Shown: piece by piece, positions 16,040 to 33,801 of the stretch
Layout: each line of letters starts with the position of its first letter
How positions within the stretch are numbered: the first letter of the stretch is position 1
DNA from: Wenzhouxiangella sp. XN201
Lineage (GTDB): Bacteria; Pseudomonadota; Gammaproteobacteria; Xanthomonadales; Wenzhouxiangellaceae
Direction of reading: 5' to 3'
DNA length: 50,000 nucleotides
Assembly (NCBI RefSeq): GCF_011008905.1
Contig: NZ_JAAIVI010000021.1
Span: 46,163-96,162 of the forward strand
Translations under genes and position numbers: made by a program
The notes under the pieces: generated by a model
The model's input: the letters and a program-made list of their open reading frames with translations, nothing else
Databases searched by the model: none
What the model was told of the DNA's origin: nothing

Positions 16040-16042
16040 GGC

Positions 16043-16738
16043 GTGGCCGATTTCATCGAACATCCCGATTTCGACACGCTGTGCAATGTGCTGGCGCCGA
16101 GGCTCGCCCAGGCGCTTCGTAACGCTGTGGCAGAACGCAGCGCCGCATCCATGGCGCTGGCCGGCGGGTCGACGCCGTTTCCGCTCTATCGCCGCCTCGC
16201 CAGCGAAGCATTGGACTGGCCGCGCGTGACGCTGTTGCCCGGCGATGAGCGCTGGGTTGCCGCTGACCATGATGCCTGCAACCTGCGCGCGATCCGGGCG
16301 GCCTTCGACGACGTCGACCCTCGTTTCGGCAAGCTCGTGCCCGATACGCCGGGCCCCGAACCGTCGCTGGAAACCGCAAGACGCACGCTGGCCGAAACGC
16401 CCGCACCATTCGACGCCTGCGTGCTGGGTATGGGTGCCGACGGACATTTCGCCTCGTTGTTTCCCGCCGCGCCGGAACTCGATGTCGGTCTCGATCCCGC
16501 CGGCAGCGAAGCCCTGGTGATCGTCACACCCGACCCGATGCCCGAAGACGCGCCGTTCGAGCGCGTCTCGCTGACCCTTTCGGCGATTGCGGCCAGTCGT
16601 TACCTGGTACTGGTCCTGCGCGGTCGGCGCAAGCGCGAGGTGCTGGAATCCGCGCGCGGCGCCGACCCGCGCGACTGTCCCGTCGCCGCGCTTCTGGCGC
16701 ATAACGGCCCGCCGCTGGAAATACACTGGAGTCCATGA
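16043..16738 (+). CDS. pgl: 6-phosphogluconolactonase (GTG start)
   Basis: Pgl hydrolyses 6-phosphogluconolactone to 6-phosphogluconate. The 231-residue protein is of the SOL/DevB type. [16 protein letters not shown] (sugar-phosphate binding) is followed by [35 protein letters not shown], the [19 protein letters not shown] block and, near the end, [17 protein letters not shown]. It starts with GTG 3 bases after the zwf stop and overlaps edd by 4 bases (ATGA), so it is part of the same operon. Confidence 0.95.
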
Positions 16739-18555
16739 GCATGCATCCGACCATCGAGTCCGTCACCGAGCGAATTCGAAAGCGCTCCGAGGCGAGTCGC
16801 TCGAGTTATCTCGAGCGTATTGACGGTGCCGTTGGCTCCGGTCCAGCGCGCTCGCGCGTCAGCTGTAGCAACGTCGCGCACGCCTTCGCCGCTTCCGGCG
16901 AGGACAAGCCCGTTCTCAAGGCCATGCAGGCGCCCAACATTGGAATCGTCACGGCCTACAACGACATGCTTTCCGCCCACCAGCCGCTGGAAAAATTCCC
17001 CGCGCTGATCAAGTTCGCTGCCCAGAGCCGCGGCTGCAGCGCGCAGGTCGCCGGTGGCGTACCCGCGATGTGTGACGGGGTCACGCAGGGTCAGCCGGGG
17101 ATGGAGCTGTCGCTGTTCTCGCGCGACGTGATTGCCCAAGCCACGGCCGTGGCGCTGTCGCACAACACCTTCGATGCAGCCCTGCTGCTGGGCGTTTGCG
17201 ACAAGATCGTGCCGGGCTTGCTGATTGGTGCGCTGGCCTTCGGGCACGTCCCGACCATCCTGGTGCCGGGCGGCCCGATGCCCTCGGGCTTGCCCAACAA
17301 GGAAAAGGCCCGGGTACGCAAGGCCCACGCCGAGGGCAAGGCTTCGCGGGAGGACCTGCTCGAAGCCGAATCACAGTCTTATCATTCACCCGGCACCTGC
17401 ACCTTCTACGGTACGGCCAATTCCAACCAGATGATGATGGAAGTCATGGGTCTTCATCTGCCCGGTAGTGCCTTCGTCAATCCCAATACGACCCTGCGCG
17501 AGCGGCTGACCCTGGCCGCGGGCGAGCGCGCTTGCGAAATCACCGCGCAGGGGGATGCCTTTACACCGCTGGGGCGTACGGTCGACGAGAAGGCCATCGT
17601 CAACGCCATGGTGGGCCTGTCAGCCACCGGCGGTTCGACCAACCACGCCATTCACCTGGTCGCGATAGCGCGTGCAGCCGGCATTGCCATCGACTGGACC
17701 GACCTGGATGAGATCTCCAGGGCCACCCCGCTCCTGACCCGGATCTATCCCAACGGCGAGGCCGACGTGAACCATTTCCACGAGGCGGGCGGCATGGCCT
17801 TCGTGATCCGTGAACTGCTGGATGCCGGCCTGTTGCACCCGGATATCAGGACCATCCATGGCGGCGACCTTTATGCGCAGGCGCAGGACCCGTTCCTCGA
17901 CGGTGAGCGACTCGACTGGAAGCCGGCAGTGGAGCAATCCGGGGACAACGCCATTCTGCGTGGCGCCGAGCGGCCATTTGCCCCGGAAGGCGGAATTCGC
18001 CTGCTGCAGGGCAACCTGGGTCGCGCCATCGTCAAGATATCGGCTGTCGAGCCCGAGCACCGGCGCATCCAGGCACCGGCCCGGGTATTCGACTCGCAGG
18101 ACGAGTTACTCCGGGCGTTTCGCGACGGCGTCCTCGACGGTGACTTCGTGGCCGTCATCCGCGGCCAGGGCCCGCATGGCAACGGCATGCCCGAATTGCA
18201 CAAGCTCACCCCCACGCTGCAGGTTCTCCAGGACCGCGGCCAGCGCGTCGCACTGCTCACCGACGGGCGGATGTCCGGCGCCTCCGGCAGCGTGCTGGCG
18301 GCCATTCACGTGGTCCCGGAAGCGGCCCGGGACGGACTCATCGGTCGGCTCGAAGCGGGCGACGAGGTGATCATCGACGCCGAGATGGGGCGCCTGGACT
18401 GCGCCGTCGATGCCGAGACATTGCGCCGCCGCGAACCGCGTCCCCTCGATCTTGCGGCCAACCGGGCCGGGATCGGGCGTGAACTGTTCGGCGCCATGCG
18501 GGCGCAGGTCAGCGACGCCGAGTCCGGCGCAAGCATCCTGTTTGTGTCCGAATGA
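16735..18555 (+). CDS. edd: Phosphogluconate dehydratase
   Basis: Edd dehydrates 6-phosphogluconate to 2-keto-3-deoxy-6-phosphogluconate. It belongs to the IlvD/Edd family with an iron-sulfur cluster. The 606-residue length is normal for Edd. Visible blocks are [37 protein letters not shown] (cluster cysteine), [14 protein letters not shown] (cluster cysteine), [20 protein letters not shown] and [12 protein letters not shown]. The start overlaps the pgl stop and the stop overlaps glk, each by 4 bases (ATGA). Confidence 0.97.
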
Positions 18556-19568
18556 GCATGCATGCCACTGAACTGGTGCTGGTCGCCGACATCGGCGGCA
18601 CCAATGCACGCTTCGCACTCGCCGACCTGGATCACGGCAAGCGTCCGAAACTGCACGACGAGCAGAAGTTCTCCGCCGACCAATTCGCCAGCCTTCAGCA
18701 CGCGGCACGCCACTATCTTGCGAGCGTAAACGGGCGTGCACGCATTTCCCGCGCCGCCATTGCCGTGGCCTGCCCCGTGACGGGCGACGAGATTCGCCTG
18801 ACCAATCGGGCCTGGTCGTTCAGCCGTCGCGAGCTCAAGCAGGAGCTCGGGCTCGAGGAGCTGCTGGTGATCAACGACTTCGGTGCGGCCGCCCGATCGA
18901 TTCCGGCTCTGCGTGACGACGAGAAGCTGATTCTCCACCATGGCGCGCATTCCGGACCCCTTGCGCCGATCAGCGTGATCGGGCCCGGCACTGGCATGGG
19001 GGTGGCCCTGATCACGCAATTCGAGATCGACAATTGGCATGTGATCGAAACCGAGGGCGGCCATGTCAGTTACGCGCCGCAGGGCAGCGAAGAGCAGATG
19101 ATTCACGACTGGCTCGCCGCACGCCACGGCCGGGTCTCGGTAGAGCGCGTACTGTCGGGAGGCGGTCTCGGTCGCATTCACGCAGCGCTTTCGGGTCGTG
19201 AGCCCTCAAAGGCCCAGACACCGAACGATTCCCTGCTTTCGCCGGCCGACATCGTGACCCAGGCCCTGGAGGGCGAGGATGTCGTATCGCGCCGCGCGCT
19301 GGCTCGTTTCTGCGCTGTGCTCGGCAGTTTTGCCGGGGATTGCGCCCTTATCCACGGGGCGCGAACCGTGGCCATTGCCGGCGGCATCGCTCCGCGTTTC
19401 GGCTCTTTCCTGAATTCCAGCGCTTTCATCGAGCGCTTCCTGGACAAGGGTCGATTTGCCGCCTGGCTCGAAGTCGTTCGCGTGGTGCTGGTCACGCATC
19501 CCGAGCCGGGCCTGCTGGGCGCCGCGCTAGCGCTACGCGACGTCAAGCGGCCGGTACCCGCGACATGA
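18552..19568 (+). CDS. glk: Glucokinase
   Basis: Glk phosphorylates cytosolic glucose to glucose-6-phosphate with ATP. The 338-residue protein belongs to the proteobacterial glucokinase family. The phosphate-binding [16 protein letters not shown] comes first, then [31 protein letters not shown] (catalytic D), [24 protein letters not shown] and the late [12 protein letters not shown]. It overlaps both edd and eda by 4 bases. Its place in the operon shows that free glucose is the expected substrate of the pathway here. Confidence 0.95.
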
Positions 19569-20215
19569 TTTCCACGCCCGACATGCGCACCCTCGATCAA
19601 CTGATGGGTGCTGCCCCGGTGATTCCCGTGCTGACTGTCGCCGATGCCGGCCAGGTCGTGCCCCTGGCGAGCACGCTGGTCGACGCCGGTCTGACGGTGC
19701 TGGAGATCACGCTTCGGACCGAACAGGCGTTGACCGCCATCCGGCGCATTTCCGAGGAGGTGCCGCAGGCGCAGGTCGGTGCCGGCACGGTCCTTACGCC
19801 CGACGATCTGGATCGCGTGGCCGATGCAGGTGCGCGATTCGCGATCTCCCCCGGTGCGACTGCCGGCCTGTACGAACGGGCCAGACGTCTCGGCTTGCCG
19901 TTTCTTCCCGGCGTCGCCACGGCTGGAGAAATCATGGCTGGCAGGGAAGCCGGCTGGACGCGCTTCAAGTTCTTTCCGGCCGCCGCCATCGGCGGCGTCT
20001 CCATGCTTAGAAGTCTGTACGGCCCCTTCCCCGACGTGGCCTTTTGCCCCACCGGCGGTATTGGCCCGAAGAACTTCCGTGAGTATCTCGCCCTGCCCAA
20101 TGTGCGCTGCGTGGGCGGGTCCTGGATGGTTCCGATGGACGCCGTCACGGGGGGCGATTGGCCGCGCATCGAGGCGCTGGCCCGCGAGTGCGTCAACCGT
20201 GTGAGGCTGGACTGA
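19565..20215 (+). CDS. eda: KDPG aldolase (2-dehydro-3-deoxyphosphogluconate aldolase)
   Basis: Eda cleaves KDPG to pyruvate and glyceraldehyde-3-phosphate, completing the Entner-Doudoroff route. The 216-residue class I aldolase has PVIPVLTVAD, VLEITLRTEQAL (catalytic Glu), VGAGTVLTPDD, FAISPGAT, FLPGVATAGEIM, RFKFFPAAAIGG (Schiff-base Lys) and FCPTGGIG. The ATG at 19565 overlaps the glk stop (ATGA). A longer in-frame start at 19340 would lie wholly inside glk and is rejected. No terminator separates it from the permease that follows 37 bases later. Confidence 0.96.
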   Translation: MISTPDMRTLDQLMGAAPVIPVLTVADAGQVVPLASTLVDAGLTVLEITLRTEQALTAIRRISEEVPQAQVGAGTVLTPDDLDRVADAGARFAISPGATAGLYERARRLGLPFLPGVATAGEIMAGREAGWTRFKFFPAAAIGGVSMLRSLYGPFPDVAFCPTGGIGPKNFREYLALPNVRCVGGSWMVPMDAVTGGDWPRIEALARECVNRVRLD

Positions 20216-20252
20216 CTCAGTTTGAATAACAAATCTGACTAACGGGATAGAT

Positions 20253-21686
20253 ATGAAAAACGCAGACGAAGCAGTAATTGAGGGTGCCGGCAATATAGGG
20301 CGGGTTCTTTTTCTGTCGATTGTGGCCGCGATCGGGGGCTTCTTGTTCGGTTTTGACAGTGGCGTGATCAACGGTACGGTTGACGCGCTACAGCTCGCCT
20401 TTGACTCCGACGCCGTTGGCACAGGTTTCAACGTGGCTTCGATGCTGTTGGGGTGTGCCGCCGGAGCCTTCTTTGCCGGGAATCTTGCCGACAAGATTGG
20501 CCGCAAGCCGGTCCTGATCATGACCGCAGTCGCATTCATCATAAGCGCCTGGGGTTCGGGTATCGCGGCCGATTCCCTCCAGTTTGTTCTTGCCCGGGTT
20601 CTCGGCGGATTCGCGGTCGGTGCCGCCAGTATCCTGGCTCCGGCCTATATCAGTGAAATTGCTCCGGCAAAAATCCGGGGGCGCCTGGCCACTCTGCAGC
20701 AGCTGATGATCGTGATCGGGCTTTTTGCTGCATTTCTGAGTAATTACTGGCTGGCAGGTATTTCAGGCAGCGCTGGTGCAGTGCTCTGGGGCGGCTTCCA
20801 GACCTATCAATGGATGTTCTGGGTGGAAATACTTCCGGCTTCCATCTTTCTGATTGCCCTGTTCTTCATTCCCGAGTCCCCTCGCTATCTTGTTGCAGCC
20901 GGCAAGTTGGACCAGGCCAAAGGGGTTCTCCGAAGTTTGTCGGACACGGTTGATGCACAGGCGAAAGTAAACGACATCAGGTCGACGCTCGTCGAAGGCA
21001 GCAAGCCCAGTCTGCGCGACATCGTCAGCAAGTACACGGGCAGAATCCATCCGATTGTCTGGGTGGGCGTCGGCCTGGCTGCCTTACAGCAGTTTACAGG
21101 CATCAACGTGGTGTTCTATTACGGTGCCACGCTCTGGCAGGCTGCGGGCTTTACGGAAGAGAACGCACTGCTGCAGAACGTGATCAGCGGCTCGGTCAAC
21201 GTGCTCTTCACTTTCGTGGCGATCGCTCTTGTTGACAAGGTCGGACGCAAGCCACTGCTCCTGGTGGGTGCGTTGGGTCAGGCAGTGATGCTCGGCGTGC
21301 TCGCAATTCTCTTCGGCACGGCAGGTGTCAACGCAAGCGGCGGCTTGATGCTGGAAGGAAACAACGGCCTTTATGCGCTGCTGGCGGCTAATGCCTATAT
21401 CGCGTTCTTCGCGTTCTCATGGGGTCCTGTCATGTGGGTCATGCTGGGCGAAATGTTCCCGAACCAGTTCCGCGGCGCTGCTCTCGCATTCTGTGGGCTG
21501 GTGCAGTGGGGTTCGAATTTCCTGATCACCATGACGTTCCCGATCATGCTCGCGAGCATCGGCCTCGGGTTCTCTTACGGAATCTATGCAACCTTCGGAC
21601 TGATCGCTTACGTCTTCGTCAGGCGTCTTGTGAAAGAAACCAAAGGGCGAACGCTCGAGGATATGTCCAGAGACGCGCAAGCTTGA
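20253..21686 (+). CDS. MFS sugar porter (probable glucose transporter)
   Basis: This inner-membrane proton-coupled sugar transporter of the sugar porter family (XylE/GLUT type) has 477 residues and about 12 hydrophobic segments. Family signatures are GFDSGVINGTVDALQ in the first helix, DKIGRKPVLI, AKIRGRLATLQQLMIVIG, PESPRYLVAAGK, QQFTGINVVFYYG, DKVGRKPLLLVG and the final KETKGRTLEDM. Its position behind glk and eda suggests glucose as substrate. It may ride on the zwf transcript, since no operator or terminator is seen in the 37-base gap. Codon use looks slightly less GC-biased than in the upstream operon. Confidence 0.9.
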   Translation: MKNADEAVIEGAGNIGRVLFLSIVAAIGGFLFGFDSGVINGTVDALQLAFDSDAVGTGFNVASMLLGCAAGAFFAGNLADKIGRKPVLIMTAVAFIISAWGSGIAADSLQFVLARVLGGFAVGAASILAPAYISEIAPAKIRGRLATLQQLMIVIGLFAAFLSNYWLAGISGSAGAVLWGGFQTYQWMFWVEILPASIFLIALFFIPESPRYLVAAGKLDQAKGVLRSLSDTVDAQAKVNDIRSTLVEGSKPSLRDIVSKYTGRIHPIVWVGVGLAALQQFTGINVVFYYGATLWQAAGFTEENALLQNVISGSVNVLFTFVAIALVDKVGRKPLLLVGALGQAVMLGVLAILFGTAGVNASGGLMLEGNNGLYALLAANAYIAFFAFSWGPVMWVMLGEMFPNQFRGAALAFCGLVQWGSNFLITMTFPIMLASIGLGFSYGIYATFGLIAYVFVRRLVKETKGRTLEDMSRDAQA

Positions 21687-21785: not shown

Positions 21786-21816
21786 AATTGTTAGCGCTGT
21801 CATTTTGCATTATGCT
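21786..21816 (+). promoter_or_regulatory. LacI-gene promoter with overlapping operator
   Basis: A -35 box TTGTTA (21788-21793) and a -10 box TATGCT (21811-21816) lie exactly 17 bases apart. The site TGTTAGCGCTGTCA, a near-palindrome, covers the -35 box and spacer. The 22 bases at 21786-21807 match those at 25607-25628 in front of the TonB receptor with one mismatch. The layout implies autoregulation of the LacI-type gene. Confidence 0.8.
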
Positions 21817-21894
21817 TGCAGCCGAATCAGAATCGCAATGCGAGGACCGGGCTTCGTCTGGGGGCCCCGGCGCGGCTCCGGAGGGACGAAACAC

Positions 21895-22956
21895 ATGGTG
21901 AATCGACGACAACGACCCAACTCCGGTCGAGTCACGATCAACGAAGTGGCCGAGCTATCGGGTGTATCCATCAAGACGGTCTCGCGTGTGCTCAACAACG
22001 AGCCCAATGTTCGTCCGGCCACGCGCGCCAAGGTGGAGAAAGCGGTCGAAGCACTCGATTATTCGCCCCACCCTTCCGCGAGAGGCCTGGCCGGCACCCG
22101 GTCGCGGATGATCGGCCTGATCTACGACAACCCCAGCCCCAACTATCTCTTCCAGGCCACCTCCGGCGCACTGCAGGCCAGTGAAGCCGCCGGCTACGGG
22201 GTTTCCTTGTTGGCTCCGGAGCAGGATGACCCGGATCTGGCCGGCAGCATTACCCGCTTTCTGTCGCAGTCGCGCGTTGACGGGTTGCTGCTGATCCCGC
22301 CCATCGGTGATGTGCCCGAAGTGATCGATGCGCTTGACCGCCTCGATCTTCCTTACGCGCGCGTTGCGCCATTGGACGGCCGTCCGGGTATTGGTGTGGC
22401 GATCGACGACCGGATGGCTGCGGCCATGGTGGTCGAGCACCTTACCGGCCTGGGACACGACCGGATCGGTTTCGTGACCGGGCCCGCGAATCACGGTGCG
22501 GCCTCGGCAAGACTGGAGGGTTATCGCATGGGCTTGGCGCGCGCCGAAATCGACTACGACCCGGAACTGGTGTTCGAAGGTCGATTCGATCTTGAGTCCG
22601 GCCGGCGGGCGGCCGCGTATTTTCTCGATATGACCCAGCGTCCGACCGCAATCTTCGCCAGTAACGACGAAATGGCCGCCGGACTTCTCCAGGTTGCCCT
22701 CGACCGGGGCTGCCGGGTGCCTGAACAACTTTCGGTGGCCGGTTACGACGATACGCCGATTTCCCGGGCGGTTTGGCCGGCTCTCACCACCGTGCGTCAA
22801 CCCATCCGCCCCATGGTCTACCGCGCGACAGAGCTCCTGCTCGACGCCATCGTTCGCCGCCAGTCGCCGCCGGGCCAATCCACGCGCGGCGTGGAGGTTT
22901 TCGAGGCGCCGCTGGTGGTCAGGGCGACAACAGCTCCGCCAGGCACCGGGGCCTGA
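21895..22956 (+). CDS. LacI-family transcriptional regulator
   Basis: This 353-residue regulator is probably the local sugar-responsive repressor. The N-terminal helix-turn-helix is VTINEVAELSGVSIKTVSRV, followed by the hinge helix region DYSPHPSARGLAG. The periplasmic-binding-protein-like effector domain (about 70-345) starts IGLIYDNPSPNY and includes FASNDEMAAGLLQVA and VAGYDDTPISRAVWPALTTVRQP. I chose ATG 21895 because GGAGGGACG precedes it and because the promoter's -10 box (21811-21816) rules out an earlier in-frame start at 21805. Effector identity is unknown; a glucose or cello-oligosaccharide product of the GH3 enzyme is a reasonable guess. The GH3 gene follows 45 bases later. Confidence 0.93.
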   Translation: MVNRRQRPNSGRVTINEVAELSGVSIKTVSRVLNNEPNVRPATRAKVEKAVEALDYSPHPSARGLAGTRSRMIGLIYDNPSPNYLFQATSGALQASEAAGYGVSLLAPEQDDPDLAGSITRFLSQSRVDGLLLIPPIGDVPEVIDALDRLDLPYARVAPLDGRPGIGVAIDDRMAAAMVVEHLTGLGHDRIGFVTGPANHGAASARLEGYRMGLARAEIDYDPELVFEGRFDLESGRRAAAYFLDMTQRPTAIFASNDEMAAGLLQVALDRGCRVPEQLSVAGYDDTPISRAVWPALTTVRQPIRPMVYRATELLLDAIVRRQSPPGQSTRGVEVFEAPLVVRATTAPPGTGA

Positions 22957-23001: not shown

Positions 23002-25554
23002 ATGCCGTCAATTTCTGTACCGAGGATCGGCGTAGCCGCCGTCATGGTCGCGGTGGTGCTTGCCGCCGCTGCGGTTGTTGGATGCCGCGCGTCCGAGGAC
23101 GTGGACGCCCCTACCAAGGCTTCGTCTGCGCCCATGGAAAGCGAGCCGCAATCCAGTGCCGCTGCCGCGTCGCCCTGGCCGCACATCCAAGCCGAATCCG
23201 ATCCGGAGGTGGAGCGGTTTGTCGATGATCTGCTCTCCCGCATGTCGCTGGAGCGCAAGGTCGGTCAAATCATCCAGGCCGAGATCAAACACGTGACACC
23301 CGAGGAAGTGCGGGGCTATGCGCTGGGATCGGTCCTCAATGGCGGCGGCTCCTTCCCGGGGGGCGACGGGCGCGCAGCCGTATCCGACTGGGTCGATCTG
23401 TCCGAGCGGATGCATTCGGCGGCCCTGGAGGCCGGAAATGGAGATCCGGCCATTCCCCTGCTATGGGGCACCGACGCCGTTCATGGCCACAACAACGTTT
23501 TCGGTGCCACCGTATTCCCGCACAACGTGGCGCTTGGCGCCACACGTGATGCCGAGCTTGTTCGCGCCATCGGACGGGCCACAGCCGAGCAGGTCGCGGC
23601 GACCGGTATCGACTGGAATTTTGCGCCGACGCTCGCGGTATCTCGCGACCTCCGCTGGGGGCGCGCCTACGAATCCTTTTCCAGTGATCCGGCGATCGTC
23701 ACCGAGCTCGGCCGGGCCGCCATCGTCGGTTTGCAGGGCGAGCCAGGCGAGGCCTGGCTTGAACCCCCCAGGGTGTTGGCGACGGCCAAGCATTTCGTCG
23801 GCGACGGCGGCACCTTCGAGGGCGTGGATCAGGGCGACGTTCGCGTGCCCGAAGACGTATTGGCTGACATCCACGGGCGCCCGTACCCGGCCGCCATCGA
23901 GGCTGGCGTCCAGACGGTCATGGCGTCGTTTTCGTCCTGGCAAGGTCGGAAAATGCACGGCCACCGTTACCTCCTGACCGACGTGCTCAAGGGGCGGCTG
24001 GGATTCGATGGCTTCGTCATCGGTGACTGGAACGGCCACGGCCAGCTACCCGGATGCAGCGTCACCGATTGCCTCGAGGCACTCGAAGCCGGCGTGGATA
24101 TGTTCATGGTGCCTGAAGACTGGCGTGCCTTCCGCGATAGCTTGCTCGAGCACGCCCGAAACGGCCGGCTGCCGATGGAAAGACTGGATGATGCGGTGCG
24201 GCGGATCCTGCGCGTGAAAAAACGTGCCGGACTGTTCGATCAGCCCGTTCCGGCGGGCCGCGATCAGTTGCCCAACGTCGATGCACATACCGCCCTGGCC
24301 CGTCGAGCGGTTCGCCAATCACTGGTTCTGCTCAAGAATAACGGCGGCGTGTTGCCCCTCGATCCCGGGTCGAAGATTCTGGTGGTCGGAGACGGTGCCG
24401 ATGATATCGGCAAGCAGTCCGGCGGCTGGACCCTGGATTGGCAGGGGGTAAAAGACGCCAATGACCGTTTCCCCAAAGGGCGATCCATTTACGCCGGAAT
24501 TGCCGAACAGGTGGCAGCCGCCGGGGGCGAAGTCCGCCTGGGTGAATCCGCGCTTTCGGACTTCGAGCCCGACGCCGTGATTGCCGTTTACGGCGAAGAC
24601 CCCTACGCAGAAGGTCAGGGTGATGTCGATACGCTGGAGTTCCAGGCCGGGAGTCGCCAGGCCCTGGACCTGCTCGACCGGCTTGGGGGTCTCGAAAAGC
24701 CAATCGTGTCGGTCTTCCTGTCCGGGCGCCCGCTGTGGGTGCATCCGGAAATGAATCGCTCCGACGCCTTTGTCGCCGCCTGGCTTCCGGGTACCGAGGG
24801 TGCCGGCGTCGCCGATATGCTCCTGGCCGGTCCGGACGGTGCGGCCCAGCACGACTTCGCCGGGCGTCTACCCTTTGCCTGGCCGGCCGCGCCCACGCCC
24901 GCGGCAGACGGTGCCTTTCCCGAACTGTTCGGAGTCGGCTACGGTCTGGACTATGCCAGTTCCTCGGACCTGGGTCCTCTCGACGAAACCGCCATGGCCC
25001 CCCGGCGCGACGACCGTGTGCCCGAGTCGGGGGACTGGGTTCTTTTCGACGGCGCTGCGCAGCCGCCCTGGGAGCTCGTCATCGGGCCGGCCCTTGGTGA
25101 AAATGCACCGGCATCGACGGTTACGGCCGAACCGGCTGATCGCTACATTCAGGGCGATGCCAGGCGGGTCACCTGGTCCGGCGAGGCGACCGGGGCGGTC
25201 ACCCTGCAGTTGGCTGCACCGCTCGATTTGGGTGCTTTTGGCAAAGACAACGCTGTACTTCGCTTCGATTTAAGGCCGGAACAGACGCTTCCGGAGGACC
25301 TGGCTCTTCGCTTCGACTGCGGTCATGGCTGCGGCGGCGAGATCAGTCTGTCAGCCGCTCTCGAGGACACGCCAGTCGGTGTCTGGCGCACGCTCGACAT
25401 CGACCTGGCCTGCCTGGTCGAGGCCGGTGCGAATCTCTCGGCCCTGCAGGGCCTGGCGGTGATGGTAACCGCGCGGGAAGCGGTTATCAGCGTGGCCGAT
25501 ATCCGGCTCGTCCGCGATGCGGCCGACACTGCGGATCTGCGCTGTAGTTCCTGA
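23002..25554 (+). CDS. Lipoprotein glycoside hydrolase family 3 (exo-beta-glucosidase)
   Basis: This 850-residue GH3 enzyme releases terminal beta-linked glucose from beta-glucans or cello-oligosaccharides. A lipobox AVVGC puts the acylated cysteine at residue 28, with R at +2, so outer-membrane anchoring is likely. The GH3 N-terminal barrel includes LLWGTDAVHGHNN, FAPTLAVSRDLRWGRAYESF and ATAKHFVGDGG (substrate-binding Lys-His, 263-264). GFVIGDWNGHGQ holds the predicted nucleophile D342. The second domain begins RRAVRQSLVLLKNNGGVLPL. The last about 160 residues form a beta-rich domain like that of ExoP-type GH3 exo-glucosidases. A clear AGGAG precedes the ATG. Together with the TonB receptor and sugar porter it forms a plausible glucan-use path. 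Confidence 0.92.
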   Translation: MPSISVPRIGVAAVMVAVVLAAAAVVGCRASEDVDAPTKASSAPMESEPQSSAAAASPWPHIQAESDPEVERFVDDLLSRMSLERKVGQIIQAEIKHVTPEEVRGYALGSVLNGGGSFPGGDGRAAVSDWVDLSERMHSAALEAGNGDPAIPLLWGTDAVHGHNNVFGATVFPHNVALGATRDAELVRAIGRATAEQVAATGIDWNFAPTLAVSRDLRWGRAYESFSSDPAIVTELGRAAIVGLQGEPGEAWLEPPRVLATAKHFVGDGGTFEGVDQGDVRVPEDVLADIHGRPYPAAIEAGVQTVMASFSSWQGRKMHGHRYLLTDVLKGRLGFDGFVIGDWNGHGQLPGCSVTDCLEALEAGVDMFMVPEDWRAFRDSLLEHARNGRLPMERLDDAVRRILRVKKRAGLFDQPVPAGRDQLPNVDAHTALARRAVRQSLVLLKNNGGVLPLDPGSKILVVGDGADDIGKQSGGWTLDWQGVKDANDRFPKGRSIYAGIAEQVAAAGGEVRLGESALSDFEPDAVIAVYGEDPYAEGQGDVDTLEFQAGSRQALDLLDRLGGLEKPIVSVFLSGRPLWVHPEMNRSDAFVAAWLPGTEGAGVADMLLAGPDGAAQHDFAGRLPFAWPAAPTPAADGAFPELFGVGYGLDYASSSDLGPLDETAMAPRRDDRVPESGDWVLFDGAAQPPWELVIGPALGENAPASTVTAEPADRYIQGDARRVTWSGEATGAVTLQLAAPLDLGAFGKDNAVLRFDLRPEQTLPEDLALRFDCGHGCGGEISLSAALEDTPVGVWRTLDIDLACLVEAGANLSALQGLAVMVTAREAVISVADIRLVRDAADTADLRCSS

Positions 25555-25773: not shown

Positions 25774-28700
25774 ATGGGACGACTGAATCTACGCCGAACC
25801 GCACTGGCGACCAGTATTGCGTTTGCGCTGCATGCCGGCACCGCGTTTGCACAGGACGCTGAGCAGGAGCAAGGCGCGGACCAGCAGGCCGAAACCAACG
25901 AGGAAGAGGATCAGCGCCGGGAATCGGATGCATCTCGCGAGCTGGAGACGCTGACTGTAACTGGCTACAAGGCCAGCATCGTGCGCGCCATGGACCGCAA
26001 GCGGAACGCCATCGGCTTCGTCGACGCGGTGACCGCCGAAGACATGGGCAAATTCCCCGACCAGAACCTGGCTGAATCCCTGCAACGGATTCCCGGTGTT
26101 TCGATCGACCGCAGCAATAACGAGGGCTCCCGGATCACCGTTCGCGGCTTCGGCCCCGATTTCAACCTGGTTACGCTCAACGGTCGGTCCATGCCCACAG
26201 CCGGTGGACGTTCCTTCGACTTCGCCGACCTGTCGACGACGGGCATCAGCGCGGTTGAAATCTACAAGTCTCCTCGTGCCGAAGTGCCCACCGGCGGCAT
26301 CGGCTCGACGGTCAATATCCTGACGCCTCGACCGCTGGATCGCCCGGGTATGCAGGCCGTGCTCAGTGGCAAGGCGGTGCATGAGACTTCTTCGTCGGAC
26401 GCCGATGTTGGCGACCTCGACGAGTGGACGCCCGAACTTGCAGGTTTGTACTCGAATACCTTCGCCAACGACACGATCGGCATCCTGATCAGCGGTTCGT
26501 TCCAGCGGCGGGACAATCGGGAAGAGAACGCTTCGGTCGATAACTGGGGCCCGAATCTTCAGCTCAACGGCGGCAACATCAACGACAATAATCAGCGGGA
26601 AGACGGCACCTGGTGGCATCCGCAGAACGTGGGCTACGGCTGGGGAGACATCTCGCGCGAGCGCATCAATGGCCAGGCTGTCCTGCAGTTCCGCCCGTCG
26701 GATCGTCTGACCATGTCGCTCGACTATACCTACTCGGAAGTGGATTTCGAGAGAGATGCCAACAGCGTGGGCATCTGGTTCGAGTGCCCCAACATCGACG
26801 CGACGGTCAACGAGCGCGGCTCGGTCACCGAGGTCGCCCAGGCCTGTGGCGACTTTTCGACCAATATCTCCAAGGACCACACGATCAAGGAGAACAATTC
26901 CCTGGGATTCAATGCCGAGTGGGCCGTGACGGATGCGCTGGAGTTCACCTTTGACGCGCATTCCTCGTCCTCCCAGTTGCGCGGTGGCGGCATCAACGGC
27001 GAGCCGGGCAGCTCGCTCAACCTGATTATCGGCAACACTTCCTGCGATTGGTGCGGCTTCGATCCCAATGCCGGACCTTTCACGGCCACGATCAATGAGC
27101 AGCGCGCCTTCTTTACTGGCAGCGGAATTCCGCGCTTTGACGTCGACTTCCGCAGCACCGGTCCGGATGGCGGCCCGCAGGACGGCCTGCTGCGACAGGA
27201 CATCGGCTCGCTGTTCGGTCAGGCTTTCAATCTGGACCTCGAAAACGATATCGACCAGTACCAGTTGGGCGGCAGCTGGCTCAACAAGCAGGACGGGGCC
27301 CTGGCCCACATCGATTTCGGTTTTTCACGCACCGAGCAGGATTTCGATCAACGCAACGCCTACTCGGGCTTGCTGCCGGCCGGCTTCTGGCTGACTTCTG
27401 CACAGCACTGGCCGGACGATCAGTGGCAGGAAGGCAGTTTCGACGGCTTGCTTGATGCCTTCTCCAACGGTGGAAACTTCTCCTACGATCACTACTACAC
27501 CGCGCCGGTGGGCTACCTCATCGACATGTGGGAAACGATCGGCGCCGACAACTTCCCCTGCTGCTACTGGCCCGATGCCGCGTTCTGGGGGCCGGACTTC
27601 CAGGACCCTTCGGGTGATCGGGGTCGATTCTGGCCCGGGCCTCTGGGCAACTCGGGTGTTTCCAAAGTGGAAGAGACGGTCAACGCCTTCTATACCCAGG
27701 CCACCTTCGAGGATACGTTCAACGGCATGCCGTGGAATGCAGTTGTCGGTCTCCGTTATGAGGAAACCGAGACCGTCTCCTTCGGTCAGGAAGTGCCGGC
27801 GACGGCAATCGTGTGGGTCGGCGGCAACGAATTCAGCTATGAATTTGCGAACGAGCCTGAGTTGAGACGCGGCGAAGGCAGTAACGATTTCTGGCTGCCG
27901 AACGTTGCTTTCAATCTCGAGGTCGTGCCGGATGTCATTGCGCGATTCGCCTATTCACGCACCATTGCGCGACCACCAATTGGTGCGCTCGGTCCCAACC
28001 GGGAGTTCGTCGGCAATCCCACTGTCCGTAACCGCCGCGTGAATACCGGCAATCCGGACCTGCTGCCCTATGTATCCGACAACTTCGATCTGGGTGTCGA
28101 GTGGTACTACGCACCGGGCAGCTACCTGTCGTTTAACCACTTCCGCAAGCGGGTCGACAACTTCCTGGTTTCGACCACCGAGGAACGCACGTTCGAAGGC
28201 CTGCTTGACCCCTACATCGGGGCTCTGGCCGAACAGGCTCGCGCCGAACTGGTCGATGAGGGCATCAGCCCGACCGACCAGGAGGTCTTCCGCCGAATCA
28301 ATGAAATCCGTGGTGTGGATCCGACGACGCCGATCCGCGCGCAGGACGGCGATCCACTGGCCGTATTCAGCGTCACGACGACGAGCAACCAGGAAGTCGG
28401 CAACGTCTGGGGATACGAGATCGCGGTGCAGCATCTCTTCGGTGACAGCGGCTTTGGTGTCCAGGCCAACGCCACGATCGTCAACGGCGACGTGGAAGCG
28501 GACCGGGAAATCCTCAACCAGAGCTTTGCGCTACCGGGGCTGAGCGATACGGCCAATCTTATCGGGTTCTACGAGAACCAGACCTGGTCGGCTCGGGTGG
28601 CCTGGAACTGGCGCGACGAGTTCCTGAGCGGCTTCGATCAGTTCGGTGCCCCGGTCTATACCGAGGAATTTGCGCCGGTCGACGTCAACCTGACCTACAA

Positions 28701-28845
28701 GTTCAACGACAATCTGGACTTCTTCGTCGAAGCGCTCAATGTAACCGATGAGGTACAACGCGTTTACGTTCGGTACCCGGAGCAATTCCTGCGAGGCAAC
28801 CAGTACGGGACCCGTTTCAATCTCGGTGCTCGATACCAGTTCTGA
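25774..28845 (+). CDS. TonB-dependent receptor, Xanthomonas/Caulobacter type
   Basis: This 1023-residue outer-membrane transporter has a signal peptide (MGRLNLRRTALATSIAFAL, cleaved after AFA at about residue 26), an acidic linker, and a TonB box-like ETLTVTGYKAS. The plug domain holds FVDAVTAEDMGKFPDQNLAESL, GVSIDR, the TVRGFGPDFNLVTLNGR block and the VEIYKSPRAE/GGIGSTVNI blocks that mark the TonB-Xanth-Caul subfamily. A 22-strand barrel follows and ends FNLGARYQF with the terminal Phe needed for assembly. The subfamily usually imports oligosaccharides. It has its own promoter and operator and probably supplies the GH3/Entner-Doudoroff route. Halogenase, SapC and JmjC genes follow. Confidence 0.94.
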   Translation: MGRLNLRRTALATSIAFALHAGTAFAQDAEQEQGADQQAETNEEEDQRRESDASRELETLTVTGYKASIVRAMDRKRNAIGFVDAVTAEDMGKFPDQNLAESLQRIPGVSIDRSNNEGSRITVRGFGPDFNLVTLNGRSMPTAGGRSFDFADLSTTGISAVEIYKSPRAEVPTGGIGSTVNILTPRPLDRPGMQAVLSGKAVHETSSSDADVGDLDEWTPELAGLYSNTFANDTIGILISGSFQRRDNREENASVDNWGPNLQLNGGNINDNNQREDGTWWHPQNVGYGWGDISRERINGQAVLQFRPSDRLTMSLDYTYSEVDFERDANSVGIWFECPNIDATVNERGSVTEVAQACGDFSTNISKDHTIKENNSLGFNAEWAVTDALEFTFDAHSSSSQLRGGGINGEPGSSLNLIIGNTSCDWCGFDPNAGPFTATINEQRAFFTGSGIPRFDVDFRSTGPDGGPQDGLLRQDIGSLFGQAFNLDLENDIDQYQLGGSWLNKQDGALAHIDFGFSRTEQDFDQRNAYSGLLPAGFWLTSAQHWPDDQWQEGSFDGLLDAFSNGGNFSYDHYYTAPVGYLIDMWETIGADNFPCCYWPDAAFWGPDFQDPSGDRGRFWPGPLGNSGVSKVEETVNAFYTQATFEDTFNGMPWNAVVGLRYEETETVSFGQEVPATAIVWVGGNEFSYEFANEPELRRGEGSNDFWLPNVAFNLEVVPDVIARFAYSRTIARPPIGALGPNREFVGNPTVRNRRVNTGNPDLLPYVSDNFDLGVEWYYAPGSYLSFNHFRKRVDNFLVSTTEERTFEGLLDPYIGALAEQARAELVDEGISPTDQEVFRRINEIRGVDPTTPIRAQDGDPLAVFSVTTTSNQEVGNVWGYEIAVQHLFGDSGFGVQANATIVNGDVEADREILNQSFALPGLSDTANLIGFYENQTWSARVAWNWRDEFLSGFDQFGAPVYTEEFAPVDVNLTYKFNDNLDFFVEALNVTDEVQRVYVRYPEQFLRGNQYGTRFNLGARYQF

Positions 28846-28871
28846 TCTAACCAAGACTCTCTCATTTGACG

Positions 28872-28898
28872 CCGCTGCTTCGGCAGCGGTACTTTTTT
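28872..28898 (+). terminator. Intrinsic terminator between TonB receptor and halogenase genes
   Basis: CCGCTGC-TTCG-GCAGCGG (28872-28889) is a perfect 7-bp stem with a stable TTCG tetraloop, followed by TAC and six T residues (28893-28898). No new promoter is obvious before the halogenase gene 28 bases downstream. The structure therefore probably acts as a partial terminator that keeps the downstream genes at lower expression. Confidence 0.85.
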
Positions 28899-28925
28899 GA
28901 GATGAATCGAGGAGGCGATCGGAGA

Positions 28926-30473
28926 ATGCGAGACGTCGTAGTGGTCGGCGGCGGAACAGCAGGCTGGATCACGGCCGGCCTGATCGCTGCGAAGCACGCC
29001 ACTGGAACGGGTCGGGGCGTTCGCGTAACCCTGGTGGAGTCACCGCAAGTCGGTACCATCGGGGTGGGAGAAGGCACCTGGCCGACCATGCGCAGCACGC
29101 TGCGGCAGCTCGGCATTCGGGAATCGACTTTTCTGGCCGAGTGCACGGCAACGTTCAAGCAGGGTACGCGCTTTGTTGGCTGGGTAGACGGTTCTGGTAA
29201 CGATGCCTACTACCATCCGTTCACGGCTCCCGCCGGTTTTCCCCGCACCGACCTGGCTTCTGCCTGGTGGCACCAGCGCGGGCGCCTGTCCTTCGCCGAC
29301 GCCGTCAGTTCCCAGGGCATGGTGTGTGATCGTAGGCTCGCGCCCAAGCAGGCTCAGACGCCGGAATATGCCGGTGTGCTCAACTACGCCTATCATCTCG
29401 ATGCAGGCCGGTTCGCAGCCCTGTTGACCCGGCATTGCACGCAAAAGCTGGGCGTACGTCACATTCAGGATCATGTCCAGGGGCTGGTCAGCACATCCGA
29501 CGGCGACATCGCTGCGCTGGAGACGGTGGATCAAGGCCGCATCGAAGGCGACCTTTTCGTCGATTGCACGGGCATGCGCGCCATGCTTCTCGGAGATCAT
29601 TACGGCGTGCCACTGATCGATCAGTCCGACGTCCTGTTCAACGACACGGCCCTGGCCATCCAGGTGCCGTACGCCGACGAATCCGGGCCGATCGAGTCGC
29701 AAACCATTTCTACGGCCCGCTCGGCCGGCTGGATCTGGGATATCGGCCTGACCCGGCGCCGCGGCGTTGGCTATGTCTACTCCAGCCGCCACAGCAATGA
29801 TGAAGATGCACAAGCCGTCCTTGCCCGCTATCTGGCCGACACCGATGTGCCGGGCGATCCGGAAGCGGCGCCGAGAAAGATTTCTTTCACGCCGGGTTAC
29901 CGTGAACATTTCTGGCACCGCAACTGCGTTGCGGTCGGCATGGCCTCGGGCTTTATCGAGCCGCTCGAAGCCAGCGCCCTGGTCATGGTGGAGTTGTCGG
30001 CCCGCATGATCGCCGAGGAGCTGCCGGCCAACAGGCAGCTGATGGACATCGTCGCGCGGCGATTCAACGAGAAATTCCGCTATCGATGGGCGCGCATCAT
30101 CGATTTCCTCAAGTTGCACTATGTATTGAGCCGAAGAGACGACAGCGACTACTGGCGCGACAACCGTTCGGCCGGGACGATTCCCGACCACCTCGGTGAA
30201 TTGCTCGAACTGTGGCGCTATCGTCCGCCCGGTCCGTCCGATTTTCCGCATTTCGACGAGATATTTTCGGCCGCGAGCTACCAGTACGTGCTGTTCGGGA
30301 TGGGATTCGAGCCCGCGGACTACTCCGGCTCGCTCGATGCCCTTAGCGAGCAGGAAACTCAACGCTTGTTCGACGATAATCTTCGGTCTGCCAACCAGCA
30401 CCTCGAGAAGCTGCCCTCAAACCGGGCGCTTTTGAACCAGATTGCCGAATTCGGCCTGCCGGCGGCGAGCTGA
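28926..30473 (+). CDS. Flavin-dependent tryptophan-halogenase-like protein 1
   Basis: This 515-residue FAD protein belongs to the tryptophan halogenase family (Trp_halogenase). The FAD motif GGGTAG is at 8-13 and IGVGEGTWP at about 45-53. A Lys in TFKQG (K78) matches the catalytic lysine of PrnA, and the SGFIEPLEAS block puts a Glu at 345 where PrnA has its active-site Glu. The usual WxWxIP motif is altered to WIWDIG (269-274). Members beside TonB receptors in Xanthomonas and Brevundimonas include enzymes shown to brominate indoles, but true substrates are unknown. The ATG at 28926 follows GGAG and begins the Rossmann strand directly; ATG 28902 is possible. No flavin reductase gene is near. 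Confidence 0.87.
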   Translation: MRDVVVVGGGTAGWITAGLIAAKHATGTGRGVRVTLVESPQVGTIGVGEGTWPTMRSTLRQLGIRESTFLAECTATFKQGTRFVGWVDGSGNDAYYHPFTAPAGFPRTDLASAWWHQRGRLSFADAVSSQGMVCDRRLAPKQAQTPEYAGVLNYAYHLDAGRFAALLTRHCTQKLGVRHIQDHVQGLVSTSDGDIAALETVDQGRIEGDLFVDCTGMRAMLLGDHYGVPLIDQSDVLFNDTALAIQVPYADESGPIESQTISTARSAGWIWDIGLTRRRGVGYVYSSRHSNDEDAQAVLARYLADTDVPGDPEAAPRKISFTPGYREHFWHRNCVAVGMASGFIEPLEASALVMVELSARMIAEELPANRQLMDIVARRFNEKFRYRWARIIDFLKLHYVLSRRDDSDYWRDNRSAGTIPDHLGELLELWRYRPPGPSDFPHFDEIFSAASYQYVLFGMGFEPADYSGSLDALSEQETQRLFDDNLRSANQHLEKLPSNRALLNQIAEFGLPAAS

Positions 30474-30510
30474 CGAACTCAGGCGCCGCCGTGCGCGCTC
30501 GGAGACAGAT

Positions 30511-31248
30511 ATGGCCCGACACGAACTGCTGGACAACGTTTCCCACCGTGAATTGCGGATTCACCGCGTGTTCCGCCCCGGACATGGTTACGATGCCGGT
30601 GTGGCGCGCGTCTTTCCGGCCGAGTTCGAGGCGCTGCAGAACGAGTATCCACTGTTTTTCATGAAGAATCGCGATACCGGGCATTTCGAACCGATTGCGC
30701 TTCTGGGGTTTTCCGACGAGGAAAATCTCTACCTCGACAACGGACGCTGGGACGCCTACTACCTGCCCCTGACGATCGAGCGCCAGCCCTTGCTGATCGG
30801 ATTCCAGCAGCAGGACATCGACGGCATACCCACCGAGGTTCCCGTGGTACACATCGATCTCGACCATCCGAGCATCAGCGAAACCGAGGGTGAGCTGCTG
30901 TTCTTGCCGCACGGCGGAGAAAGCGAATGGCTCGAGCGCATGACCTCGGTCTTGATGGAGATCCACGAAGGCCACCAGGCCATTCCCGCATTCTCCCAGA
31001 CACTGGTGGGACTGGAGTTGATCGAGTCGGTGTCGCTGGATTTGCAGTTTCGCGACGGGTCCAGCCAGAACCTCAAGGGCTTGTATGCCATCGACGAGTC
31101 GCGCCTGGCGCAGTTAGGCGGCACAGCGCTGGAAGCGCTTCACAAGAAGGGTTATCTCCGGCTCATTTACATGATGCTGGCTTCCATGCCCAACCTGTCG
31201 ATACTCACCGAACGCAAGAACCGGCAAGTCATGGCTACGGCCTCGTGA
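30511..31248 (+). CDS. SapC family protein
   Basis: This 245-residue protein resembles the SapC family (Pfam SapC, named after an S-layer-linked gene), whose biochemical role is not established. Recognisable blocks are the VFPAEFEALQNEYPLFF region, GFSDEENLYLDNGRWDAYYLP (read as two parts: GFSDEENLYL and RWDAYYLP), and the C-terminal LKGLYAIDESRL and LGGTALEALHKKGYL. The YLRLIYMMLASMPNLSIL-type ending is also present. No signal peptide is seen, so it should be cytosolic. GGAGA precedes the ATG at 30511. It sits 37 bases after halogenase 1, and its stop overlaps the JmjC gene (TGATG), so the set is one operon. Confidence 0.83.
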   Translation: MARHELLDNVSHRELRIHRVFRPGHGYDAGVARVFPAEFEALQNEYPLFFMKNRDTGHFEPIALLGFSDEENLYLDNGRWDAYYLPLTIERQPLLIGFQQQDIDGIPTEVPVVHIDLDHPSISETEGELLFLPHGGESEWLERMTSVLMEIHEGHQAIPAFSQTLVGLELIESVSLDLQFRDGSSQNLKGLYAIDESRLAQLGGTALEALHKKGYLRLIYMMLASMPNLSILTERKNRQVMATAS

Positions 31249-32255
31249 TGCGCCCCGAGCGCACCATCGAAGAAACTGAACGTGCAGACGCCTCGACCGT
31301 GATCGAATCGGTCAACGGCCGTGCCGAGCCGTTGGTTTTGCGGGGTCTGTGCACCGACTGGCCGCTTGTTCAGGCCGCCGACTCGCCTGACGCAGTCGAA
31401 AGGCTGTTGCTTGACCACTACGAAGGCGCACCGGTAACGGCTTTCCTGGGCGAGTCCGGCAACGACGGGCGTCTCTTCTACAACGACGATATCTCGGCGC
31501 TGAATTTCAAGCCGACCAGAACCGGCCTCGATGCGGTCCTGTCGCATATTCGACAGGCCCGGGAGCAATCGCCTGCGCCCACGGTCTATATGGGCTCGAT
31601 GGCCATGGACCATTGCCTGCCCTCGCTCAAGCCCACTCACAGCCTGGCCACCCACGACCTGCCGACGACTGTAAGGATCTGGATAGGAAATCAGTCAAAG
31701 GTGGCCGCACACCACGACGTGCTCGACAACATCGCCTGCGTGTGCGTGGGAGAACGGCAGTTCACGCTCTTCCCGCCTGAACAACTGGCCAACCTCTATC
31801 TGGGGCCCATCGACATGACGCCGGCCGGGCAGCAGGTGAGCCTGGTCGATCCCGACAATCCCGATTTCGAGGCCTTCCCCCGTTATGCAGAGGCGCTCGA
31901 GGCCGGGCTGTGGGCCGAGTTGCAGCCGGGCGATGCCATCTACATTCCGAGCATGTGGTGGCACCAGGTTTACGCCCTGTCGTCCCTGAACATCCTGATC
32001 AATCACTGGTGGCGCGACGTTCCCTCTTATATGGGCGCGCCCGGAGACGTCTTGATCCACGGTCTGATGAACTTGCGGGGGCTGCCCAGACGCCAGCGCG
32101 AGGCCTGGCGGCACATGTTCGAGTACTACATCTTCGACCCGCCCGAGGACGCCCTGGCGCACATACCGGAATCCAGCCGTGGCGTGCTCGGCGACATGAA
32201 CGAAGAGCAAGCACGGCAGTGGCGCTCGATGCTGCGTAACAAGCTCAATCGCTAG
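31248..32255 (+). CDS. JmjC/cupin-like Fe(II) dioxygenase-type protein
   Basis: This 335-residue protein belongs to the cupin-like (Cupin_8/JmjC, FIH-type) family of 2-oxoglutarate/Fe(II) oxygenases. The metal triad is visible as HHDVLDN (an H-x-D motif, about residue 160) and IPSMWWHQVYAL (distal His, about 247). RIWIGNQSKVAAHHD, ERQFTLFPPEQLANLYLGP and WAELQPGDAIYIPSMWWHQ are strong family blocks. Relatives hydroxylate protein side chains or small molecules; the target here is unknown. It starts at ATG 31248, sharing bases with the SapC stop, so translation is coupled. A 37-base gap follows before halogenase 2. Confidence 0.85.
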   Translation: MRPERTIEETERADASTVIESVNGRAEPLVLRGLCTDWPLVQAADSPDAVERLLLDHYEGAPVTAFLGESGNDGRLFYNDDISALNFKPTRTGLDAVLSHIRQAREQSPAPTVYMGSMAMDHCLPSLKPTHSLATHDLPTTVRIWIGNQSKVAAHHDVLDNIACVCVGERQFTLFPPEQLANLYLGPIDMTPAGQQVSLVDPDNPDFEAFPRYAEALEAGLWAELQPGDAIYIPSMWWHQVYALSSLNILINHWWRDVPSYMGAPGDVLIHGLMNLRGLPRRQREAWRHMFEYYIFDPPEDALAHIPESSRGVLGDMNEEQARQWRSMLRNKLNR

Positions 32256-32292
32256 GGCCGCTGCACGGCCCCGCTCACCGGAGGATCAAGGC

Positions 32293-33801
32293 GTGGACAA
32301 ACTCGAGAAAGTCGTGATCGTAGGAGGCGGCACCGCGGGATGGATGGCTGCCGCGGCGCTGGCCAAGACTTTCGGCCCGACCATCAATGTCGAATTGATC
32401 GAATCCGATGCCATCGGCACCGTCGGGGTGGGAGAAGCGACGATTCCGCCGATCAGGAATTTCAATCTGCTGCTTGAACTCGATGAGGCTGATTTCCTGC
32501 GCGCGGTCAACGGCACCTTCAAGCTCGGCATTGAATTCGAAAACTGGGGAGAACTGGGCGATCGATACTTCCATCCCTTCGCCCCGCACGGTATCGACAC
32601 CTGGGCCGCTCAGTTTCATCACTACTGGCTGCGCGCCCGTCAGGCCGGTGAAAGCGCCGCGCTGGATGATTTCAGCATGGAAACCTGTATGGCGCGGGCC
32701 AACCGATTCGGCAACAAGTCCGGGCGGGCGGCCAATTACGCCTATCACTTCGACGCCACCGGCTATGCGCGGCTGCTGCGCGGGCTCGCCGAGAAGATGG
32801 GTGTCGTGCGAAGCGAAGGCAAAGTCATCGATGTCGAACAGCATTCCGAGTCTGGATTCATTGAATCGGTCAGGCTGGAATCCGGGCGTCGAATCACGGG
32901 CGAGCTGTTTATCGACTGCAGCGGCTTCCGTGCACTGCTCATCGAGCAAACGCTCGGCACCGGCTGGGAAGACTGGTCGCATTGGCTGCGCAGCGACCGG
33001 GCACTGGCCGTGCAGACCGAATCGACGCGTCCGCCGGTACCCTACACCCGCTCGACCGCACGCAGCTGCGGCTGGCAGTGGAAGATTCCGCTTCAGCATC
33101 GGGTCGGCAACGGCCTGGTCTATTGCAGCGACTTCATGGACGAGGATCGGGCCGCCCGCACCTTGATGGATAATCTCGAAGGCCGTCCGATTACGGATCC
33201 GCGCCCGATCCGATTCAAGACCGGCCGCCGTCGGCAGCAGTGGACCAAGAATTGCGTCTCACTCGGCCTGTCCAGCGGCTTTCTCGAGCCGCTTGAGTCG
33301 ACGAGCATTCATCTCATTCAGAACAGCATCATTCGACTGATCAAGATGTTCCCGCGGGCCGGAATCGAGCAGGCCAATATCGATCAGTTCAACCGTGAAG
33401 TGGAAAGCGAGATCGAATACATCCGGGATTTCATCATCCTGCACTACCACGTCAATCAGCGCACGGACTCGCCCTATTGGACCGAGTGCCGGGAGATGGA
33501 TATTCCGGATTCGCTGCGCCACAAGATCGACCTGTTTTCGCGATCGGGCGTGATCTTCAGAGAAAACAACGAACTTTTTTCCGAAGTGTCGTGGACGGCC
33601 GTGATGATCGGGCAGGGTCTGCTGCCCGCCAGCTATCATCCGGTAGTTGACCGCGTTGATGACGCGAACCTCGCGGCCATGATGGCCAGGGTCAAGGCAG
33701 ACATTGCGCACGTGGTCAGCGACGGGCCGAGCCACGATACCTATATCCAGCAGCTGCTCGATGCCAGGCGGAGCAATCAGCAGCCCGCCGCTTCGGCCTA
33801 G
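32293..33801 (+). CDS. Flavin-dependent tryptophan-halogenase-like protein 2 (GTG start)
   Basis: This 502-residue second halogenase-family protein of the operon keeps all the classical marks. The FAD motif GGGTAG is at 11-16, GVGEATIPP at about 45-53 and the catalytic Lys in TFKLGIEFENW at K77. The canonical WQWKIPL (261-267) and LSSGFLEPLESTSIH (active-site Glu at about 332) follow. It therefore looks closer to a working halogenase than the first copy, whose WxWxIP motif is altered. It starts at GTG 32293 with a ggagg-like sequence upstream. It converges with anmK, the two stop codons overlapping by 4 bases (33798-33801). Confidence 0.9.
   Translation: MDKLEKVVIVGGGTAGWMAAAALAKTFGPTINVELIESDAIGTVGVGEATIPPIRNFNLLLELDEADFLRAVNGTFKLGIEFENWGELGDRYFHPFAPHGIDTWAAQFHHYWLRARQAGESAALDDFSMETCMARANRFGNKSGRAANYAYHFDATGYARLLRGLAEKMGVVRSEGKVIDVEQHSESGFIESVRLESGRRITGELFIDCSGFRALLIEQTLGTGWEDWSHWLRSDRALAVQTESTRPPVPYTRSTARSCGWQWKIPLQHRVGNGLVYCSDFMDEDRAARTLMDNLEGRPITDPRPIRFKTGRRRQQWTKNCVSLGLSSGFLEPLESTSIHLIQNSIIRLIKMFPRAGIEQANIDQFNREVESEIEYIRDFIILHYHVNQRTDSPYWTECREMDIPDSLRHKIDLFSRSGVIFRENNELFSEVSWTAVMIGQGLLPASYHPVVDRVDDANLAAMMARVKADIAHVVSDGPSHDTYIQQLLDARRSNQQPAASA

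Follow-up and report, generated by a model that had tools for sequence, protein, structure and literature searches.

What do flavin-dependent halogenases act on when their genes stand next to that of a TonB-dependent receptor? The question is raised by a 50,000-nucleotide stretch of the Wenzhouxiangella sp. XN201 genome (assembly GCF_011008905.1, contig NZ_JAAIVI010000021.1, positions 46,163 to 96,162; hereafter the window), in which a receptor gene is followed by genes for two tryptophan-halogenase-family proteins (here HalA and HalB), a SapC family protein and a JmjC/Cupin_8 protein (Table 1). An earlier note, made from the sequence alone, had described this set as tightly packed with a coupled start at SapC/JmjC, and both points held. 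All five genes lie on the + strand, the gaps in the order receptor-HalA-SapC-JmjC-HalB are 80, 37, −1 and 37 bases, and the SapC stop and JmjC start have one base in common (TGATG), giving an operon-like layout. Each of the five proteins exceeds its Pfam cut-off; the curated thresholds are 310 bits for TIGR01782 (receptor) and 28.9 bits for PF07277 (SapC). For HalA, the mechanical open reading frame opens at TTG 28866, and we took ATG 28926 as the start. Across the whole genome, SapC has a single match and Cupin_8 has two (218 and 115 bits), and PF04820 is represented by two full-length halogenase-family genes and by weaker matches elsewhere. A pathway for ribosomally synthesized and post-translationally modified peptides was rejected: the set has no precursor-peptide gene, and gaps of this size leave no room for a separate one. 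Among the window proteins scanned, which were part of its genes, none belonged to a non-ribosomal peptide or polyketide assembly line.

Table 1. The five-gene set and the annotated genes upstream of it (positions in the window).
Feature	Position	Strand	Basis
TonB-dependent receptor, 1023 aa, TonB-Xanth-Caul type	25774..28845	+	TIGR01782 604.5 bits; Plug + barrel domains
HalA, tryptophan-halogenase family	ATG 28926..30473	+	PF04820 414.6 bits (for frame); nearest solved relative 2pyx
SapC family protein, 245 aa	ATG 30511..31248	+	PF07277 211.1 bits
JmjC/Cupin_8 protein, 335 aa, FIH/JMJD5-like	ATG 31248..32255	+	Cupin_8 216.2 bits
HalB, tryptophan-halogenase family	GTG 32293..33801	+	PF04820 638.9 bits; nearest solved relatives 9luq, 6y1w, 6frl
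zwf, pgl, edd-type dehydratase, glk (glucose/Entner-Doudoroff)	14579..19568	+	NCBIfam, Pfam
Sugar porter, MFS	20253..21686	+	Sugar_tr, TIGR00879
LacI-type regulator	21805..22956	+	Pfam
GH3 glucosidase-type protein with Exop_C domain	23002..25554	+	Pfam, NCBIfam

The set is more than a chance arrangement, because the identical gene order recurs across many genomes. Across 151 genomes of the order Xanthomonadales, SapC was found in 54, Cupin_8 in 68, PF04820 in at least 114 and TIGR01782 in all 151 (at least 94 over the cut-off); the scans with PF04820, TIGR01782 and a profile of the cassette receptors scored the best 10, 5 and 5 candidates of each genome, which makes their counts lower bounds. 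This last profile recovered at least 45 receptors in at least 34 of the 151 genomes. Of the 45 found, 40 have a JmjC gene and 36 a SapC gene in the 5.5 kb downstream, on the same strand. The earlier note had named a lack of co-conservation of receptor and cassette as grounds for refuting its idea; this outcome favours the idea. The remaining five comprise two receptors at contig ends (G052, G147), which cut some cassettes, one (G126) that accompanies a full cassette as its second receptor, a receptor with HalB only (G111:C4) and a divergent receptor (G063). Seen from the other genes, phmmer recovered SapC in 70 of 72 stretches around SapC matches, with JmjC 3' of it on the same strand in 36; the other 34 loci carry a second, low-scoring SapC type (41–80 bits; e.g. 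L048:9296-10036) and no JmjC. A subfamily receptor lies upstream in 40 of the 60 Cupin_8 matches entered (eight of 106–140 bits and all below 80 bits were left out), while several of the other 20 stand with other receptors and halogenases and others stand alone. At 5 of the 45 receptors, JmjC occurs without SapC and follows the receptor directly after 91–205 bases (L234:5849-9998 in G096, G068:C30, G081:C8, G131 and G047:C18).

The arrangement extends beyond the order. A contig scan with the JmjC alignment returned 571 relatives, of which we kept the best 80 by JmjC likeness, a choice that favours cassettes like that of the window. Cellvibrio, Duganella, Massilia and Shewanella salipaludis are among the carriers of the cassette. 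By their record titles, these 80 loci come from alpha-, beta- and gammaproteobacteria; 76 contain SapC, 72 a subfamily receptor, 69 HalB and 61 HalA, and the order is exactly receptor-HalA-SapC-JmjC-HalB in 46 and receptor-SapC-JmjC-HalB in 10. When the 106 receptors of both sets were tallied without deduplication (loci from one assembly common to both were removed only for tree and distance work), they were followed by HalA-SapC-JmjC-HalB in 57 cases, SapC-JmjC-HalB in 29, SapC-JmjC in 5, HalA-SapC-JmjC in 4, JmjC alone in 2 and rarer forms, some of them cut by contig ends. Receptor, HalA, SapC, JmjC and HalB thus form a conserved unit.

The receptors of this unit form a clade of their own. 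In a FastTree phylogeny, one branch with full local support splits 102 receptors of the cassette set from 26 other TIGR01782 receptors (the 30 best-scoring TIGR01782 loci of the order minus four cassette receptors), with a program warning of long branches meeting that includes this very split. In an alignment of 99 cassette receptors, 145 columns reach a conservation of at least 90%, and 52 of these occur in fewer than half of the 26 controls. Over the same 28 loci, receptor distances track those of SapC, JmjC and HalB (r 0.93–0.95) more than those of GH3 (r 0.67). Mapping presence onto the receptor tree needs 9 changes for HalA and 7 for HalB, which indicates that single enzymes have come and gone with the receptor retained. 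By a crude rule, the receptor N-terminus is signal-like; the rule was applied to several candidate starts for each receptor and to one for other proteins, which favours signals in the receptors.

By their sequences, HalA and HalB are members of the PF04820 flavin-dependent halogenase family with intact catalytic motifs. Flavin-binding GxGxxG and GVGE-type motifs are present in 68 HalA and 92 HalB sequences, and the catalytic Lys and Glu (K78 and E348 in HalA, K77 and E335 in HalB), at what we take to be the PrnA sites, are near-invariant in these relatives. HalB also carries WxWxIP, presumably a mark of flavin-dependent halogenases, in place of which HalA has WxWDIG. PrnA, RebH and Thal, which halogenate free tryptophan, belong to the same family and share the Lys, Glu and flavin motifs; in PDB sequence searches they score below the BrvH/Xcc4156 group for HalB and below 2pyx for HalA. 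Among solved structures, HalB is closest by sequence to 9luq, 6frl (BrvH) and 6y1w, which we take to be Xcc4156. A Xanthomonas arboricola cassette has a HalB that matches 6y1w across residues 5-514 (1025 bits), so that Xcc4156 itself probably belongs to a receptor cassette of this kind. In one X. arboricola genome (L066, L193), the HalB frame is split by an in-frame stop. HalB further matches 79 phage records, mostly cyanophages, the listed cyanophage rows at 29–34% identity and two faecal clones at ~50%; in print, a connection of phages with receptors is a matter of speculation only (PMC11337851). One unverified faecal clone labelled bacteriophage (MT835646.1, L284) matches SapC, JmjC and HalB in a row and is the only phage record matched by SapC and by JmjC; it is probably bacterial DNA.

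BrvH and Xcc4156 have been studied as lone biocatalysts. Bromination in vitro is reported for members of this family with indoles or comparable screening compounds (PMC5945002, PMC7336383), and BrvH and Xcc4156 both brominate test substrates. The native substrates of these two enzymes are called unknown (PMC7336383), and those of the 2pyx type are likewise reported as unknown. The authors of the BrvH study suggest that larger substrates fit the active site and mention a second halogenase gene adjoining that of BrvH; 'TonB', 'SapC' and 'cupin' have zero occurrences in its main text (PMC5945002). We found no description of the cassette, and no paper combining 'halogenase' and 'SapC', in the open literature searched, which takes in few subscription papers.

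Of the remaining two proteins, the JmjC protein points towards protein modification. In PDB sequence searches, the best solved relatives of the JmjC protein are FIH and JMJD5, eukaryotic protein hydroxylases that act on cytosolic or nuclear proteins. It shares their HxD...H iron triad (H155, D157 and H239, invariant in 16 aligned relatives) and has an Arg where FIH has its 2-oxoglutarate-binding Lys. SapC has no significant solved relative by sequence, and its predicted structure reaches a mean pLDDT of 96.3. DUF6445 (PF20043), which adjoins or belongs to the cassette in 18 of 172 loci (e.g. L158:12419-13162) and is thus optional, has an HxD, a distal His and an Arg that suggest a second 2-oxoglutarate oxygenase.

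What the receptors import can be approached through their neighbours. Among 89 scanned proteins (of 144 listed neighbours of 37 loci, without a background control; the others, including several large GH3-like ones, were dropped by hand), we counted GH16 10, MFS 7, SKN1/KRE6 7, Exop_C 6 and LacI 6 times. A Sphingobium plasmid carries, as annotated and in a row, receptor, SapC, cupin, halogenase, GH16, LacI, MFS and GH3. With GH3 beside the receptor in the window and GH16 in related loci, the usual cargo of the cassette receptors is probably beta-glucan, which is free of aromatic rings. Related enzymes also occur outside this context: on a Pseudoalteromonas plasmid, genes for alpha- and beta-galactosidase accompany those for a receptor, a halogenase and SapC, and in some stretches other receptors (276–357 bits in the cassette-receptor profile) adjoin halogenase genes with or without JmjC. 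Of 40 non-cassette halogenase loci, hand-chosen from the PF04820 scan, 29 adjoin a gene for a large protein with a signal. A scan of 30 of the 36 such proteins listed, again without a background control, gave a TonB barrel in 21 and a different barrel model, OMP_b-brl_4, in 9. The link between this halogenase family and TonB receptors is thus probably wider than one ligand. Halogenases beside other receptor classes, together with a ring-free cargo, point to the receptor and not the ligand as the common factor. Known carbohydrate TonB loci (CUT loci, OmpBgl) share receptor, sugar porter, LacI regulator and glucosidase with the window. The main texts of PMC2996990, which describes an OmpBgl receptor, and of PMC1790865 have zero occurrences of 'Halogenase', 'SapC' and 'cupin'.

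From the observed linkage, gene order and motifs, we infer a target, a chemistry and a role for SapC. A beta-glucan-type TonB receptor would have its own set of cytosolic oxidative enzymes, whose target before export would be the precursor of the receptor or a protein partner that is just as constant. Hydroxylation of a side chain would fall to the FIH-like JmjC protein, and halogenation or oxygenation of aromatic side chains, with reduced flavin and O2, to HalA and HalB; SapC would be an adaptor holding the precursor or gathering the enzymes. The receptor would thereby acquire a changed surface or ligand site. The receptor is favoured as the target because the enzymes are lost singly, the JmjC protein is FIH-like and the cargo is ring-free. 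Also in favour are the co-conservation of receptor and cassette, the separate receptor clade, the distance correlation, the larger substrates suggested for the BrvH active site and the lack of room for a precursor-peptide gene. To this tentative reading, in which modification of the receptor or of a protein just as constant takes place in the cytosol and precedes export, we give somewhat less than an even chance. The more specific version, a dedicated system that hydroxylates and halogenates the outer-membrane receptor before export with SapC as adaptor, and in which the orphan TonB-linked flavin halogenases would have their native function, is on the unlikely side as it stands.

A small-molecule substrate was the other proposal of the earlier note, which had considered an aromatic part of the imported substrate. 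The enzymes would then act in the cytosol on an aromatic compound imported with or released from the glycan, such as an aryl-glucoside aglycone or a phenolic decoration. The in vitro bromination of indoles or comparable screening compounds (PMC5945002 and PMC7336383) fits this idea, as do the adjoining GH3 glucosidase-type gene, sugar porter and LacI regulator, and one ligand class could be common to the whole receptor clade. The proposal is weakened by flank tallies that lead to GH16/GH3 beta-glucan loci, by the related halogenase-SapC pair in a galactoside locus and the halogenases beside other receptor classes, and by the independent loss of single enzymes; we consider it unlikely.

Modification of another protein, such as SapC, a glycoside hydrolase or part of the TonB machinery, with no more than co-regulation of the receptor gene, would equally suit a JmjC protein that resembles protein hydroxylases, and SapC adjoins JmjC in 36 of 70 SapC loci of the order. 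This seems rather improbable given the receptors with JmjC and no SapC (5 of 45 in the order sample, 2 in the tally of both sets) and a GH3 gene that is inconstant and whose distances track the set less well. A role as a sensor or redox switch (for oxygen, halide or flavin) that controls receptor production without a stable modification is very doubtful. FIH, which acts as an oxygen sensor in animals, and the LacI regulators in many cassette loci would fit; the catalytic positions of both halogenases are near-invariant, and Pfam finds no DNA-binding domain in the four enzyme-set proteins, both of which speak against a switch.

Several observations weigh against modification of the receptor or its partner. 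The distribution is patchy, with SapC in 4 of 15 genomes of the genus, and neither SapC nor Cupin_8 has a match in the genome that carries the divergent receptor G063. The distance correlation is explained in part by close linkage. The halogenases should need reduced flavin, and the lack of a flavin reductase gene observed earlier for the window extends, for PF01613, to the whole genome (zero matches, with the control matching 13 of 14 genomes; PF01613 was the sole reductase family searched). Column tests pinned down no target residue on the receptor. The best lead, position 226, is Tyr in 74% of receptors with HalA and 11% of those without; under tree control the association of Tyr/Phe 226 with HalA rests on 8 independent pairs and is not significant (median p 0.25; the column was chosen among many), nor did three more column tests reach significance. 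Among 124 conserved columns, W777 alone differs in at least two of the four receptors without a JmjC neighbour, at least two of which have a cassette elsewhere in the genome.

The earlier note had also named tryptophans, said to be abundant in the receptor barrel, as possible targets. Tryptophan makes up 2.35% of the window receptor, and the group means are 1.69% (102 cassette receptors) and 1.49% (26 controls), so that richness was rejected as a group feature on this near-ordinary content. W335, W539, W681, W946 and H396 are among the 52 cassette-typical columns and were dropped as modification sites, since the conserved residues are kept independently of a neighbouring JmjC gene. Tryptophans are therefore not supported as the target. 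What stands of the side-chain idea is the co-conservation of receptor and cassette; the modification itself stays conditional.

Upstream of the window receptor, the genes are by family assignment a glucose/beta-glucoside use cluster (Table 1). Between glk and the sugar porter (19568-20253) no gene was assigned; no search was aimed at eda. An AnmK-type kinase and an M23 peptidase lie 3' of HalB on the opposite strand.

Placing the orphan halogenases in a conserved receptor cassette opens the question of their native substrate to direct mass spectrometry. If the receptor is modified, many Gram-negative bacteria would have a new layer of control over their uptake of sugars, which might also extend to other things that the receptor recognises.

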